Below, in pieces: positions 20,525 to 25,333 of a stretch of 37,168 nucleotides of DNA. The first letter of the stretch is position 1. Every line of letters begins with the position of its first letter. Where the stretch lies: positions 1 to 37,168 of the forward strand of contig JAJZRE010000022.1 in the NCBI GenBank assembly GCA_021802945.1, in the 5' to 3' direction. This stretch comes from Pseudomonadota bacterium. GTDB taxonomy: Bacteria; Pseudomonadota; Gammaproteobacteria; Burkholderiales; Thiobacillaceae. A model generated the notes under the pieces. The model was not told the DNA's origin. It worked only from the letters and a program-made list of their open reading frames with translations, and did not search any database. The position numbers and the translations under genes are program-made.

Positions 20525-23398
20525 ATGAACGCCAAGATCAAACTCGAAAATCACGACGCGCAGGAAATCAAGTACACCACCTGCTACATGTGTGCCTGCC
20601 GCTGCGGCATCAAGGTGACGCTGGAGGACAACAAGGTCCGCTTCATCCAGGGCAACCGCAACCATCCCACCAACCAGGGCGTGCTGTGCGCCAAGGGTTC
20701 GGCCGGGATCATGAAGCAGTATTCCACCGCCAAGCTGACCCAGCCTTTGATGCGCAAGCCGGGCACCGAGCGCGGCGAGGGTGTCTATGAGGCGATTTCC
20801 TGGGACCAGGCGCTCGACATCCTGACCGACCGGCTGGAGGAAATCCGCTCGACCGACCCGTCGAAGCTCGGCTTCTTCACCGGCCGCGATCAGATGCAGG
20901 CGCTGACCGGCCTGTGGGCGCAGCAGTTCGGCACCCCCAACTGGTCGGCGCACGGCGGTTTCTGTTCGGTCAACATGGCGGCGGCGGGTCTGTATTCCAT
21001 CGGTTTCTCGTTCTGGGAATTCGGCGCGCCCGACTGGGATTACGCCAAGTACTTCCTGATGTGGGGCGTGGCGGAAGACCATTCGTCCAACCCGATCAAG
21101 ATCGGCCTGGAAAAACTCAAGCGCCGCGGCGGCAAGTTCGTCACCGTCAACCCGGTGCGCACCGGCTATTCGGCGATCGCCGACGAATGGCTGCCGATCA
21201 AGCCCGGCATGGACGGCCTGCTGGCCATGTCGATGGTGCACGTGCTGCTGAAGCACGAGAAGTTCGACTACGAATTCCTGGTGCGCTACACCAACGCCTC
21301 CTGGCTGGTGGTGCAGACCCCGGGGCAGAAAGGCGACGGCCTGTTCCTGCGCGACGAGAACGATCACCCGCTGGTCTGGGATATCGACAAGGAAGCATTC
21401 AGGAACGGCATCGACGGCGACATCGCCCCGGCGCTGTTCGGCGAATTCGTGGCGCCCGACGGCCGCCGCGTCAAGACCGTGATGTCGCTGATGGTCGAGC
21501 GTTATCTCGACGAGCGCTACGCGCCGGAAAACGTGGCCCTCGAATGCGGCCTGCCGGCCGAGAGCATCGAGCGCATCGCGCTGGAAATGGCGCACGTGGC
21601 GTTCCAGGAAACGGTCGAGCTGCCGATCGAGTGGACCGACGTGTGGGGCCGCAAGCATGACAAGGTCGTGGGCCGCCCGGTGGCGATGTACGCGATGCGC
21701 GGCATTTCCGCCCACTCCAACGGCTTCCACTCCTGCCGCGCGATCCACATGATCCAGATGCTGCTGGGCGCGCTCGACGCGCCGGGCAACTTCCGCGCCC
21801 GCGCGCCGTATCCGAAGCCGATCCCGCCGCACCAGCTGCCGGAAAACAACATCGACATCATCAACGCGCCGAACACCCCGCTGTCGCGTCCGCCGCTCGG
21901 TTTCCCGACGCGCCCGGAAGACCTGGTGATCGACGAATTCGGCAATCCGCTGCGCATCGACAAGGCCTATTCGTGGGAAGTGCCGATCGCCTCGCACGGC
22001 CTGATGCACATGGTCATCACCAACGCGACCAACCACGATCCCTATGCGCTCGACACCCTGATCCTGTTCATGGCCAACATGGCGTGGAACTCGACCATGA
22101 ACACGGCCAACATCCAGGACATGCTGCGCGCCAAGGATCCGGAAGAGCCCGGCCAGTACAAGATTCCGTTCCTGGTGGTGATCGATGCCTTCCATTCGGA
22201 GATGACCAACTTCGCCGACCTGATCCTGCCGGACACCACCTACCTCGAGCGGCACGACTGCATCTCGCTGCTCGACCGGCCGATTTCCGAGCCCGACGCG
22301 GCGGCCGACGCGATCCGCTACCCGCTGGTCAAGCTTGACCGCGACGTGCGCCCGTGGCAGGAAGTCATGGTCGAGCTCGCCTCGCGCCTGAAATTCCCGG
22401 CCTTCACCAAGCCCGACGGCACACGCAAGTTCAAGGACTACCCCGACTTCATCGTCAATTTCGAGCGTTCGCCTGGCGTGGGCTTCCTCGCCGGCTGGCG
22501 CGGCAAGGACGGCACGAAGTCGCTCAAGGGCGAGCCCAATCCCAACCAGTGGGACAAGTACATCGAGAACCAGAGCTTCTTCGCGCACCACTGGCCCGAC
22601 AACCAGAAGTACATGCGCTACGCCAACAAGGACTACCTCGAGGTGGCGGCGGACGTCGGTTTCGTCGGCAAGGTCGAGCCCATCATCATGCAGTTCTATT
22701 CCGAGCCGCTGCAGAAATTCCGCCTGGCGGGGCAGGGCCTGTACGACGGCCCGCAGCCCAACAACCAGGTCGACCGCGAGCGCCTGGTGAAGTATTTCGA
22801 CCCGCTGCCGATGTGGTACGAGCCGCTCGAGCAGCAGCGCGTGGACAAGGAGGAATACCCCTTCTTCGCGCTGACCCAGCGCCCCATGTTCATGTACCAC
22901 TCGTGGGATTCGCAGAACGTGTGGCTGCGCCAGATCATGGCGCAGAACTACATGTACATGAACAGCCGCCGCGCGGCCGAAATGGGCATCCAGGACTTCG
23001 ACTGGATCTGGGTCGAGTCGCACAACGGCAAGATCCGCTGCCAGGTCAAGACCATGGAAGGCACCCAGGAAGACACCATCTGGACCTGGAACGCCATCGG
23101 CAAGCAGAAGGGCGCATGGGGCCTCAAGGAAAACGCCTCCGAGGCGACCAGGGGCTTCCTGCTCAACCACCTGATTTCCGAGCTGCTGCCGGAGAAGGCG
23201 GGCGAGCGCCGCGTCACCAACTCCGACCCGGTGACCGGCCAGGCCGCGTGGTTCGACCTGCGCGTGAAGATCTGGAAGGCCGCGCCGGGCGAAACCGGCT
23301 CGTGGCCGCAGTTCGACGCGCTGAAGAAGCTGCCGGGCGACAACTACGATCGGCCGGACGTGCTGCGCTACGACGCGCGCAGCCACGAAAAGAACTGA
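20525..23398 (+). CDS. soeA: SoeA, molybdopterin subunit of cytoplasmic sulfite dehydrogenase
   Basis: SoeABC oxidises sulfite to sulfate at the cytoplasmic face of the membrane and passes electrons to quinone. The 957-residue protein is a DMSO-reductase-family molybdoenzyme. The N-terminal [4Fe-4S] site is C-x2-C-x3-C-x27-C (Cys20, 23, 27, 55). The probable molybdenum ligand is Cys147 in HGGFCSVNMAAAG, as in the PsrA/Soe group. The C-terminal molydopterin-dinucleotide-binding region starts near YPFFALTQRPMFMYHSWDSQN. There is no Tat signal, unlike PsrA or PhsA, which supports the cytoplasmic SoeA assignment. Length is close to the roughly 970 residues of SoeA proteins. It is followed by soeB and soeC in the typical order. 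Tetrathionate or polysulfide reductase relatives are the alternative, but the missing Tat signal and the sulfur-oxidation context argue for SoeA. Confidence 0.9.
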   Translation: MNAKIKLENHDAQEIKYTTCYMCACRCGIKVTLEDNKVRFIQGNRNHPTNQGVLCAKGSAGIMKQYSTAKLTQPLMRKPGTERGEGVYEAISWDQALDILTDRLEEIRSTDPSKLGFFTGRDQMQALTGLWAQQFGTPNWSAHGGFCSVNMAAAGLYSIGFSFWEFGAPDWDYAKYFLMWGVAEDHSSNPIKIGLEKLKRRGGKFVTVNPVRTGYSAIADEWLPIKPGMDGLLAMSMVHVLLKHEKFDYEFLVRYTNASWLVVQTPGQKGDGLFLRDENDHPLVWDIDKEAFRNGIDGDIAPALFGEFVAPDGRRVKTVMSLMVERYLDERYAPENVALECGLPAESIERIALEMAHVAFQETVELPIEWTDVWGRKHDKVVGRPVAMYAMRGISAHSNGFHSCRAIHMIQMLLGALDAPGNFRARAPYPKPIPPHQLPENNIDIINAPNTPLSRPPLGFPTRPEDLVIDEFGNPLRIDKAYSWEVPIASHGLMHMVITNATNHDPYALDTLILFMANMAWNSTMNTANIQDMLRAKDPEEPGQYKIPFLVVIDAFHSEMTNFADLILPDTTYLERHDCISLLDRPISEPDAAADAIRYPLVKLDRDVRPWQEVMVELASRLKFPAFTKPDGTRKFKDYPDFIVNFERSPGVGFLAGWRGKDGTKSLKGEPNPNQWDKYIENQSFFAHHWPDNQKYMRYANKDYLEVAADVGFVGKVEPIIMQFYSEPLQKFRLAGQGLYDGPQPNNQVDRERLVKYFDPLPMWYEPLEQQRVDKEEYPFFALTQRPMFMYHSWDSQNVWLRQIMAQNYMYMNSRRAAEMGIQDFDWIWVESHNGKIRCQVKTMEGTQEDTIWTWNAIGKQKGAWGLKENASEATRGFLLNHLISELLPEKAGERRVTNSDPVTGQAAWFDLRVKIWKAAPGETGSWPQFDALKKLPGDNYDRPDVLRYDARSHEKN

Positions 23399-23430
23399 GC
23401 CGTACCCAGAAAAATAGAGCGAGCAAAACT

Positions 23431-24126
23431 ATGAGACTTGGATTGGTCATCGACCTCGACGTGTGCGTGGGCTGCCATGCCTGCGCCATCGCCTGCAAGG
23501 AATGGAACGCCTCCGGCACCATCGGCCCGTTGTCCGACTACCAGCCCTACGGCGCCGAGCCGTCGGGCGTGTGGTTCAACCGGATCCGCCATTACGAGAT
23601 GGACGAGTATCCGAACAACAAGACGGTCAACTTCCCGATGTCGTGCATGCACTGCGAGGACGCCGACTGCGTCACCGTGTGCCCGACCGGCGCCTCGTAC
23701 AAGCGTCCCGAGGACGGCATCGTGCTGATCGACCAGGACAAGTGCATGGGCTGCAACTACTGTTCGTGGGCCTGCCCCTACGGCGCGCGCGAGCTCGACC
23801 GTTCCAGCGGCACGATGAAGAAGTGCACCCTGTGCGTCGACCGCATCTACGACCAGGCGCTGCCGGTCGAGGAGCGCCAGCCTTCGTGCGTGCTGACCTG
23901 CCCGGCGCACGCCCGCATGTTCGGCGACTTCGACGATCCCGATTCGGCCGTGTCGCGCACCGTGCGCGAGCGCGGCGGCTTCCCGCTGATGCCCGAGCTC
24001 AACTACAACCCGACCAACACCTACCTGCCGCCGCGCCGCAAGCCGGTGATCCCGGTCGACACCCAGCCCAGGGGCGGCCTCAAGGAAAGCATCAAGCAGT
24101 TCGCCAACAAGCTGGTGCGCCGTTGA
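23431..24126 (+). CDS. soeB: SoeB, iron-sulfur subunit of sulfite dehydrogenase
   Basis: This protein of about 231 residues carries four [4Fe-4S] motifs of the DmsB/NrfC type. The first is CVGCHACAIACKEW (Cys12, 15, 18, 22), then CMHCEDADCVTVCP, then CMGCNYCSWACPYG, and the last is KCTLCVDR with CVLTCPAHA. It would transfer electrons from SoeA to the membrane subunit SoeC. There is no signal peptide, in line with a cytoplasmic SoeA. The start is 32 bases after soeA and the spacing supports one operon. A ribosome-binding site is only weakly visible upstream (AGAGCGAG). The unusual repeat block at 24162-24329 lies between its stop and soeC. Confidence 0.93.
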   Translation: MRLGLVIDLDVCVGCHACAIACKEWNASGTIGPLSDYQPYGAEPSGVWFNRIRHYEMDEYPNNKTVNFPMSCMHCEDADCVTVCPTGASYKRPEDGIVLIDQDKCMGCNYCSWACPYGARELDRSSGTMKKCTLCVDRIYDQALPVEERQPSCVLTCPAHARMFGDFDDPDSAVSRTVRERGGFPLMPELNYNPTNTYLPPRRKPVIPVDTQPRGGLKESIKQFANKLVRR

Positions 24127-24161
24127 ACCGTGCTGCCCAACAAATAGAGCCAGGAGAATCC

Positions 24162-24244
24162 ATGCATCCCGCTTTTCGGCTCCGACATAGCCTGAAGGTT
24201 GATCTCCGCCGAAATGCGGGATGCTGATTAATTAGGAAATCATC
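24162..24244 (+). repeat. leader repeat copy 1 with 21-codon ORF and 16-bp inverted repeat
   Basis: This is the first of two tandem copies ahead of soeC. It opens with an ATG behind a good ribosome-binding site (AGGAGA, 24152-24157) and encodes MHPAFRLRHSLKVDL plus six residues, stopping at TGA 24225-24227. The arms GCATCCCGCTTTTCGG (24164-24179) and CCGAAATGCGGGATGC (24209-24224) pair at 15 of 16 positions around a 29-base loop. Over its first 63 bases it matches copy 2 at 54 positions. Confidence 0.8.
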
Positions 24245-24329
24245 ATGCATCCAGCATTTCGGCTGCGACATAACCTGAAGGTTGGTCTTCACCGAAATGC
24301 CGAATGCCTAAATTTATTAGGGGATCAAT
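24245..24329 (+). repeat. leader repeat copy 2, ending at the soeC start
   Basis: This second copy begins with ATG behind TTAGGAAATC and encodes MHPAFRLRHNLKVGL in the same register as copy 1. It has no stop before soeC, so its frame runs across the soeC start out of register. The arms GCATCCAGCATTTCGG (24247-24262) and CCGAAATGCCGAATGC (24292-24307) pair at 14 of 16, with AACCT/AGGTT (24272-24283) in the loop. The unit ends with TTAGGGGATCAAT, the soeC ribosome-binding site. The right arm is also complementary to the first codons of soeC (GCATCCGGCATTTT). Confidence 0.8.
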
Positions 24330-25268
24330 ATGCATCCGGCATTTTCTGTCATCTTCTTCACCGTGGCGTCGGGCGCCGGCTTCGGCCTGTTCTCGCTGCT
24401 GTTCATCGCCGACACCTTCAAGCTGGGCGGCGGTTTCACCCCCGCCCAGCTCGTCATCGGCGGAATCGTCGCGCTGGGCCTGATCGGCTTCGGCCTGCTG
24501 TCGTCCACCTTCCACCTCGCCAACCCGAAAAACGCCTGGCGCGCCTTCAGCCGCTTCCGCACTTCGTGGCTGTCGCGCGAAGGCGTGTTTGCCGTGGTGT
24601 TCATGCCGCTGGCGCTGGTCTACCTGGCCTGCATCGGGTTCGATGCGCCGCTGTGGCTGCGCGAAACCTTCGGGCTCCTGTCGGCCGTACTGGCCTGGAT
24701 CACGGTGTTTTCCACCGGCATGATCTACGCCTGCCTGAAAACCATCCGCCAGTGGAACACCCCGCTGGTGCCCGCCAACTATCTGGCGCTGGGCTACGCC
24801 AGCGGCAGCCTGCTGCTGCTGCTGGGGGCGGTCATGGCCGGCCTCGACACCCTGCCGTATATCGCGATGGCGGCGCTGATCGTCTCGATCGCCGCGGTGC
24901 TGAAGGCGATCTACTACTTCTGGATCCGCAGTCCGGGACTGACGCCGACCATCAATACCGCAACCGGCCTGACCCGCGCCAAGGTCAAGCTGCTGGACAC
25001 CGGCCACACCCACGGCACCTTCCTCACCCAGGAGTTCGGCTTCCAGATCGCGCGCAAGAAGGCCGGCCTGCTCAAGATCGTCGTGTTCGGACTGGGGTTT
25101 GTACTGCCCGGCCTGATGCTGGTGTGGGTCTTCAACGAGCGGGACGGACAGGCTGCTGCGATCATCGCGGCCTTCGCCGGGATCGCAGGCGCCGCCGTCG
25201 AGCGCTGGCTGTTCTTCGCGGAGGCGCGCCATGTCGTGAACCTGTACCACGGCGCGCAGCGCTGCTAA
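24330..25268 (+). CDS. soeC: SoeC, membrane anchor of sulfite dehydrogenase
   Basis: The 312-residue integral membrane protein is of the DmsC/NrfD-like anchor type, with about eight hydrophobic helices. It starts MHPAFSVIFFTVASGAGFG, the typical start of this anchor family. It is expected to bind quinone and receive electrons from SoeB. The ATG has AGGGGA 6 bases upstream. Family features include FHLANPKNAWRAFSRFRTSW (about 61-80) and TGMIYACLKTIRQW (about 130-143). It is the third gene of soeABC but lies 203 bases after soeB, far more than the soeA-soeB gap, because of the tandem leader repeats. Confidence 0.92.
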   Translation: MHPAFSVIFFTVASGAGFGLFSLLFIADTFKLGGGFTPAQLVIGGIVALGLIGFGLLSSTFHLANPKNAWRAFSRFRTSWLSREGVFAVVFMPLALVYLACIGFDAPLWLRETFGLLSAVLAWITVFSTGMIYACLKTIRQWNTPLVPANYLALGYASGSLLLLLGAVMAGLDTLPYIAMAALIVSIAAVLKAIYYFWIRSPGLTPTINTATGLTRAKVKLLDTGHTHGTFLTQEFGFQIARKKAGLLKIVVFGLGFVLPGLMLVWVFNERDGQAAAIIAAFAGIAGAAVERWLFFAEARHVVNLYHGAQRC

Positions 25269-25292
25269 TCCGCTTGCGGAGTGGGGGCATGC

Positions 25293-25333
25293 TTGGCGCG
25301 TCTCCCGCTTTGGGGTATATTAGAAAGTTCTAA
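25293..25333 (+). promoter_or_regulatory. rhd-tusA promoter with overlapping palindromic operator
   Basis: TTGGCG (25293-25298) and TATATT (25316-25321) with 17-base spacing form a good sigma70-type promoter. The palindrome TTAGAA-AG-TTCTAA (25320-25333) overlaps the -10 and the expected start of transcription, so a bound dimer there would block polymerase. An ArsR/BigR/SqrR-type persulfide-responsive repressor would be a logical partner, but none is encoded in the window. Confidence 0.6.

Follow-up and report, generated by a model that had tools for sequence, protein, structure and literature searches.

Tandem units before soeC are probably copies of a small mobile hairpin element with a replacement gene end

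The soeB-soeC locus

The window, which is the whole 37,168 nt stretch of DNA analysed here, carries neighbouring genes that fit a molybdopterin enzyme, a 4Fe-4S subunit and a DmsC-type anchor. The soe gene names are taken from the initial annotation of this DNA; compared with NCBIfam, soeC matches no family at an E-value of 1e-10 or below. The features of the region are the following, where E is the hairpin element described in this work and the bar in a motif marks a boundary.

23431..24126, forward strand: soeB (4Fe-4S subunit), upstream neighbour; open reading frame with Pfam Fer4_11 at 1.8e-23 on 23398-24123
24152..24172, forward strand: left flank of unit 1 with the ribosome-binding site AGGAG and ATGCATCCCGC; a putative ancestral start of soeC, now displaced
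24173..24214, forward strand: E hairpin of unit 1, with left arm TTTT, core and guide-like GAAA end (24211-24214)
24215..24224, forward strand: X' arm of unit 1 (TGCGGGATGC), complementary to the start copies on either side
24225..24259, forward strand: leader (TTAGGAAATCATC) together with a copy of the soeC start (ATGCATCCAGCATTT); presumably both the right end of unit 1 and the target of unit 2
24257..24297, forward strand: E hairpin of unit 2, with guide-like GAAA end (24294-24297)
24298..24307, forward strand: X' arm of unit 2 (TGCCGAATGC), complementary to the functional soeC start
24308..24345, forward strand: leader and functional soeC codons 1-5 (ATGCATCCGGCATTTT), which we read as brought by the element; the TTTT|C boundary lies at 24345/24346
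24330..25268, forward strand: soeC (DmsC-type membrane anchor); open reading frame of 312 amino acids, Pfam DmsC at 5e-25

The two tandem units that the initial annotation described before soeC are real: a direct repeat of 64 nt (24161-24224 and 24244-24307, 86% identity, spacing 83), in which lie the inverted repeats I1 (24164-24180/24208-24224, 17 nt, 94%) and I2 (24247-24262/24292-24307, 16 nt, 88%). The ribosome-binding site and start codon reported for each unit were found as AGGAG and AGGAA upstream of ATGs at 24162 and 24245. The first ATG opens a frame of 21 amino acids (MHPAFRLRHSLKVDLRRNAGC) and the second one of 362 amino acids (24245-25333), which crosses soeC out of register as had been said; the soeC start itself, previously placed at 24332, was off by two and its ATG is at 24330. 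The arms are nearly interchangeable, as was claimed. With G-T pairs allowed, the right arm R1 pairs at 16/17 positions with the left arm L1 and at 16/17 with L2, while R2 pairs at 14/17 with L2 and, in agreement with the complementarity noticed earlier, at 13/17 with the soeC start. Folding of the spacer RNA, which had been suggested as a check, gave for the 274-nt leader a z of -3.12 against dinucleotide shuffles, with 1 of 200 shuffles folding as well. The repeat observation is more than chance, and the same element recurs in other genomes.

No curated Rfam family lies over the units in window positions 23900-24700. The sole Rfam match there is asX3, with 20 bits against a gathering threshold of 40, at 24421-24526 downstream of the units; at 24421-24451, inside soeC, there is a 14-nt inverted repeat with a 3-nt loop.

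A dispersed hairpin element

The two units look like head-to-tail copies of a dispersed hairpin element, here called E. One exact-pattern scan gave 100 stretches, and among the 80 matches listed many carry the titles Gallionella, Sideroxydans, Nitrosomonadales or Methylophilaceae, and two Thiobacillus; the core letters of E are invariant by design of the scan pattern, the left half (CGACAT) and the arms lying outside it. In an alignment of 79 sequences the outer stem covaries, with 61 both-side cells against 30 in shuffled alignments and 0 of 500 shuffles as high. Pairing between the left arm and the guide is partial, pair 6-42 being unpaired in 34 of the 79 aligned elements, and the centre stem may in places be longer and of other sequence.

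The covariance model built for E (model R1, distinct from arm R1) matches unit 1 at 24171-24219 (E-value 9.2e-11) and unit 2 at 24254-24302 (E-value 8.7e-13). Within the genus it finds E in 11 of 56 genomes at an E-value of 0.1 or below, 7 of them at 0.001 or below, and in the order in 61 of 250 genomes and 36 of 120 genera at 0.001 or below, with up to 20 matches per genome; 11 genomes picked for carrying E have 1-16 matches each. The initial annotation had proposed searching for the repeat in this genome and its relatives. In the window's genome the structure model finds these two copies only, the next best match of a DNA search being 18 nt long (E-value 0.77), while copies at unrelated sites are present elsewhere. 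A 41-nt E query gave no match at an E-value of 0.1 or below in the plasmid and phage collections, and our searches of open-licence papers turned up no account of E or of gene-restoring hairpins.

Arrays of at least three E units, mostly of similar spacing, are present in G152:C23, G216:C1 and L121. At locus L106, E lies within what we take to be a sequence resembling a group II intron. The record is titled Klebsiella pneumoniae, though E is otherwise found mostly in betaproteobacterial records, so the name of this bin may be wrong.

Element plan, insertion sites and orientation

The plan of the element is TTKT, E, GMAA, a hairpin and a terminal TTKT|C. The second stem, which joins the middle arm to the right arm, lies above the 95th percentile of shuffles in 45 of the 85 elements with enough flank and above the 99th in 38. 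In these 45 the pair of bases after the right arm is TC in 34 and TG in 8, with a TC background of 6%; the middle and right bases match in 43/45, which is partly built in by the stem search. The mutually exclusive folds noted before soeC are an instance of this three-arm plan, in which alternative stems arise since the left and the right arm are both possible partners of the middle one.

At L160 the insertion is clean, at CTCAAACATATT|CGTCGG (ATATT|CGTCGG), with no duplication. L118 and L151 occupy the same site with ATATT changed to ATTTT, where L160 keeps ATATT, and at three other empty sites one or two left bases are changed (TTGCT to TTGTT, GTGCT to GTGTT, CTAC to CTATT). Clean insertion does not explain these left-base changes. 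No long target duplication was seen at the non-genic empty sites. Direct repeats in the flanks exceed the 99th percentile in 20 of 85 elements; long inverted flanks as a general rule were rejected, with 2 of 85 above that percentile. An insertion point within a widespread repeat, CCCTGCGTTG..TCGACTGG, is occupied or empty depending on the record (L111, L149, L184, L189). Close neighbours share their orientation in 29 of 30 cases, head-to-tail, these cases having been picked by eye among the matches listed.

Y1_Tnp is present in 7 of the 11 E genomes. No E was found at an E-value of 1 or below within about 1.5 kb on each side of 18 Y1_Tnp loci, and no Y1-like open reading frame in 203 loci, most of them holding E; neither set contained a linked REP transposase of the GTAG type. 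It is possible that a transposase acts in trans from elsewhere.

Relationship to known systems

Some integrative elements restore the 3' end of a tRNA or other gene on insertion; these carry an integrase and measure many kilobases. E would share with them the rebuilding of an interrupted gene by an element-borne homologous end, with the old end left as a remnant, but its unit, roughly 100 nt long, is non-coding. IStrons, which combine a group I intron with an IS according to an excerpt of PMC4227781, likewise make a mobile element harmless on landing in a gene; they do so by RNA splicing, whereas E would do so by a replacement gene end in DNA.

Members of the IS200/IS605 family have hairpin ends, and a 4-nt guide beside the hairpin pairs with the 4-nt cleavage or target site, as described in excerpts of PMC6006769 and PMC8266576. 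E has GMAA 5' of its second hairpin and a matching TTKT on the far side, a left flank motif that resembles the right end, and non-genic empty sites without long duplication. It differs in that no transposase gene was found in the loci searched, in its one shared guide, which lies 3' of the first hairpin and not 5', and in a right part that may be host gene sequence. The insertion of E resembles the IS200/IS605 logic, by analogy, and E is a candidate member; the guide-like GMAA points to a similar single-strand chemistry.

The initial annotation had offered a REP-type insertion that happened to share the soeC start. As a repeat insertion this was near the mark; the shared start is not chance, because the unit carries a soeC start. 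That E is an ordinary REP of the GTAG or CGTC superfamily, landed at soeC by chance, we regard as quite unlikely. The short imperfect palindrome with bulge and internal loop is like REP/REPIN sequences (those mobilised by TnpA-REP, or RAYT), and a short bulged hairpin of low to moderate copy number with no linked transposase recalls the CGTC REPs of PMC3733652. Against this, the GTAG/GTGG or CGTC tag is absent 5' of the hairpin foot in the alignment of 79 elements, there are at most 20 matches per genome among the 250 genomes of the order, and gene-end copies lie beside E. REP dimers, by the same source (PMC3733652), are mostly head-to-head and rarely head-to-tail, so that the direct tandem arrangement of E neighbours runs against their habit of inverted pairs.

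The soeB-soeC spacer across the genus

soeC is present in 49 of 56 genomes of the genus, and 46 spacers were parsed; outside these are G054 and G014, where short spacers were seen, and G010. Many spacers of the genus are short and start like ..CCAGGAGAATCCATGCATCCCGCTTTCTCAGTC. By eye the unit is found in 8 of the 46, namely G000 and G015 (two units each), G047, G041, G034, G036, G024 and G042. The structure model matches at soeC at an E-value of 0.1 or below in G000, G015 and G047 only. In the other five the E core is eroded and gives no match to model R1, the unit being assigned by eye, and G042 has no second ATG.

Comparison of orthologous spacers, another proposal of the initial annotation, showed that G005 and G044, the nearest relatives of G000 and G047 after each other, are both without the unit. 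The left remnant of G000 and G047 reads as the start of G044 and G016, and CCAGGAGAATCCATGCATCCCGCTTT, from the left flank of unit 1, recurs at the empty sites of G005, G016 and G044; the leader type of 24225..24259 is present in G047 too. The soeB genes of G000 and G047 are close to those of the sisters, and their soeC leader shows no resemblance to the leaders of G005 and G044. Against these two sisters soeC is identical at 12/15 positions in nt 1-15, at 44/45 (G005) and 42/45 (G044) in nt 16-60, with a range of 42-44/45 for G000 and G047, and at 221-226/240 in nt 61-300. Judged from these comparisons, the leader and codons 1-5 appear as a foreign segment between sister-like flanks, which suggests that soeC now starts from a leader supplied by the element.

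On a soeBC tree of 45 of the 46 rows (7 with the unit; G034 was too short and left out) the unit label is patchy and needs at least 5 changes, of which starred branches force 3. With shuffled labels the average is 6.7, so the label is somewhat clustered on the tree. Changed soeC start codons are common to G011, G018, G023, G025 and G051, which lack E, and part of the start signal may thus predate the units. This observation, together with the recurrence of the same genes across species (dksA, hisC, aspartate aminotransferase, hemE), would fit homologous recombination that moved gene ends with E already downstream and no site-specific insertion. We nevertheless consider such recombination an unlikely explanation, since soeC becomes sister-like straight after codon 5 (as in G005), neighbouring units are head-to-tail, and the TTKT-anchored gene-end copies described below exceed those of permuted flanks.

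Other sequences are found in the same spacer. G003, G049 and G022 (L060, L070, L071) have a different repeat, GTCATTGCGAG..AAGCAATCC, which fits a CGTC-type REP as characterised in an excerpt of PMC3733652, and G011, G030, G038 and G051 (L059, L067, L074, L079) have other hairpins and no second start, that of G051 keeping TTTTGGC, perhaps an eroded E. The soeB-soeC spacer may be a hot spot for hairpins.

Gene ends and tRNA genes beside E

E is found at the 3' ends of dksA, rpoA, hisC, hemE, nrdA, acsA and pheS, and also in the anticodon loops of tRNA-Ser and tRNA-Phe genes. HisC, HemE, DksA and acetate-CoA ligase exceed the NCBIfam cut-offs with at least one model, while aspartate aminotransferase and NrdA (a 200-aa fragment) were named from a best match below cut-off, and RpoA (L107, L174), PheS, UbiA and 3-hydroxyacyl-CoA dehydrogenase from Pfam. 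A TTKT-anchored copy of the gene end above the 99th percentile of permuted flanks is present in 28 of 107 elements, on the right in 25, on the left in 4 and on both sides in one; the copies are direct and 10-56 nt long, and the cases are not independent, as the same genes recur in related species. The other 79 elements have no significant gene-end copy. The copies at pheS and ubiA were seen by eye. At L034 (G094) the ubiA start is present again in tandem next to E, which together with soeC makes two gene-start cases.

The reading frame across the boundary is that of the gene end in 16 of 19 loci tried, three being misassigned (L107, L174, L114) and the frame of L129 having 38 aa only; the stop codon is 4-36 nt away from E. 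Displaced ends were set against functional ones in 20 cases, which are 18 of the 25 right-side cases plus L163 and L097. Excluded were L129 and the second unit of L123, as identical tandem copies, and also L136 and the four units at soeC. Differences at codon positions 1, 2 and 3 number 58, 42 and 133. In the 14 cases with identity of at least 0.6 they number 25, 12 and 79 (chi-square P 5e-13), the six cases of lower identity standing outside the test and inside the total. Displaced and functional ends alike thus seem to have a history as coding ends; some of the codon-position bias could come from pairing with X'. The initial annotation had seen in the third-position differences between the two copies before soeC a slight hint of coding constraint; it was right in this, and the pattern at gene ends suggests why. 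By our own count, 15 of the 20 remnants can still be read as a homologous C-terminus that stops close to where the gene normally does.

ARAGORN placed a tRNA gene within about 150 nt of E at 8 of 8 loci picked for their tRNA-like flanks, with the 5' half after E. In L229, L239, L261 and L173 the half-tRNA similarity stops at the tRNA 5' end or no more than about 6 nt from it; L244 is an array and stands outside this reading of extent.

Direct copies flanking 28 of 107 elements, and tandem copies at L123 and L129 that are identical over 53 nt, are what one would expect of an ordinary insertion with a long target-site duplication, the copies drifting apart afterwards. The third-position bias and the homologous, properly terminated remnants speak against this reading, as do the non-genic empty sites without long duplication and the tRNA similarity ending near the tRNA 5' end. 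At soeC the non-functional left copy is that of the sisters and the functional start differs, the reverse of duplication followed by decay. We hold this explanation to be very unlikely.

Possible effect on soeC translation

As one possibility the initial annotation named a translational switch or attenuator specific to soeC, with leader peptides and mutually exclusive stems setting the amount of SoeC. The equal pairing of R1 with L1 and L2 agrees with this, as does the remnant ATG of the first unit, which in the 6 genomes keeping it heads an open reading frame of 14-21 aa. Predicted accessibility of the AUG is also lower with units, at 0.26 in the 8 unit-bearing leaders against 0.55 in the 38 others (P 0.004). 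That of the Shine-Dalgarno sequence is predicted at 0.52 with units against 0.41 without (P 0.046), and for the whole initiation region there is no predicted difference (P 0.25), so that the region as a whole is not less accessible. The frame of unit 2 enters soeC out of register. By eye 38 of the 46 parsed leaders lack the unit, and E with the same three-arm plan is found at unrelated genes, so that it is neither conserved in nor specific to soeC leaders. Some relatives preserve the start-hiding pairing less well than the enclosing hairpin; it is weak in G036 and G024 (10 and 11 of 17), while X-X' pairing reaches at least 14/17 in 7 of 9 units. A switch as the reason for the unit is hence highly improbable; a side effect of the units on soeC translation is possible, going by the predicted folding.

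A proposed route of insertion and its meaning

We think it quite probable that a small mobile hairpin element, non-coding and with a replacement gene end, is present before soeC in two tandem copies. In this element the conserved hairpin E flanked by TTKT would come first, then the guide-like GMAA, and then a second, variable hairpin with TTKT at the very end; insertion would take place 5' of C at NYT|C or TTKT|C sites. At sites within a gene end or the anticodon loop of a tRNA gene, surviving elements would bring a homologous end or half-tRNA from another lineage, which would rebuild the host gene and leave its original end behind as a remnant. In the case of soeC, the X' arm, the ribosome-binding site and codons 1-5 (..ATGCATCCRGCATTTT) would come with the unit. 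The first MHPAF peptide would go back to the old soeC start, and the second tandem unit would have made the next one; we read the MHPAF peptides as displaced soeC starts. A new right end would recreate the target, which fits the head-to-tail neighbours. A gene end may first have been captured from a donor when a TTKT|C inside the next gene was used as the right end, and mobility of this kind would proceed by a single-strand, transposition-like mechanism.

We lean towards a broader reading, in which tiny non-coding elements home into fixed sites in conserved genes (dksA, rpoA, hisC, hemE, nrdA, acsA, pheS, soeC, tRNA-Ser, tRNA-Phe), each sub-lineage adapted to a single gene through a foreign allele of its end, and spread between species by swapping the terminus at little cost to the host. 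If this is true, very small non-coding DNA would live in highly conserved genes by means of a replacement gene end, and short gene segments would have a simple way of passing from one species to another. It would also be a source of odd duplicated starts, stops and half-tRNAs, which may be misread in annotation as leader peptides or switches, and the set of insertion sites would be a starting point from which to seek the enzyme that moves the element.
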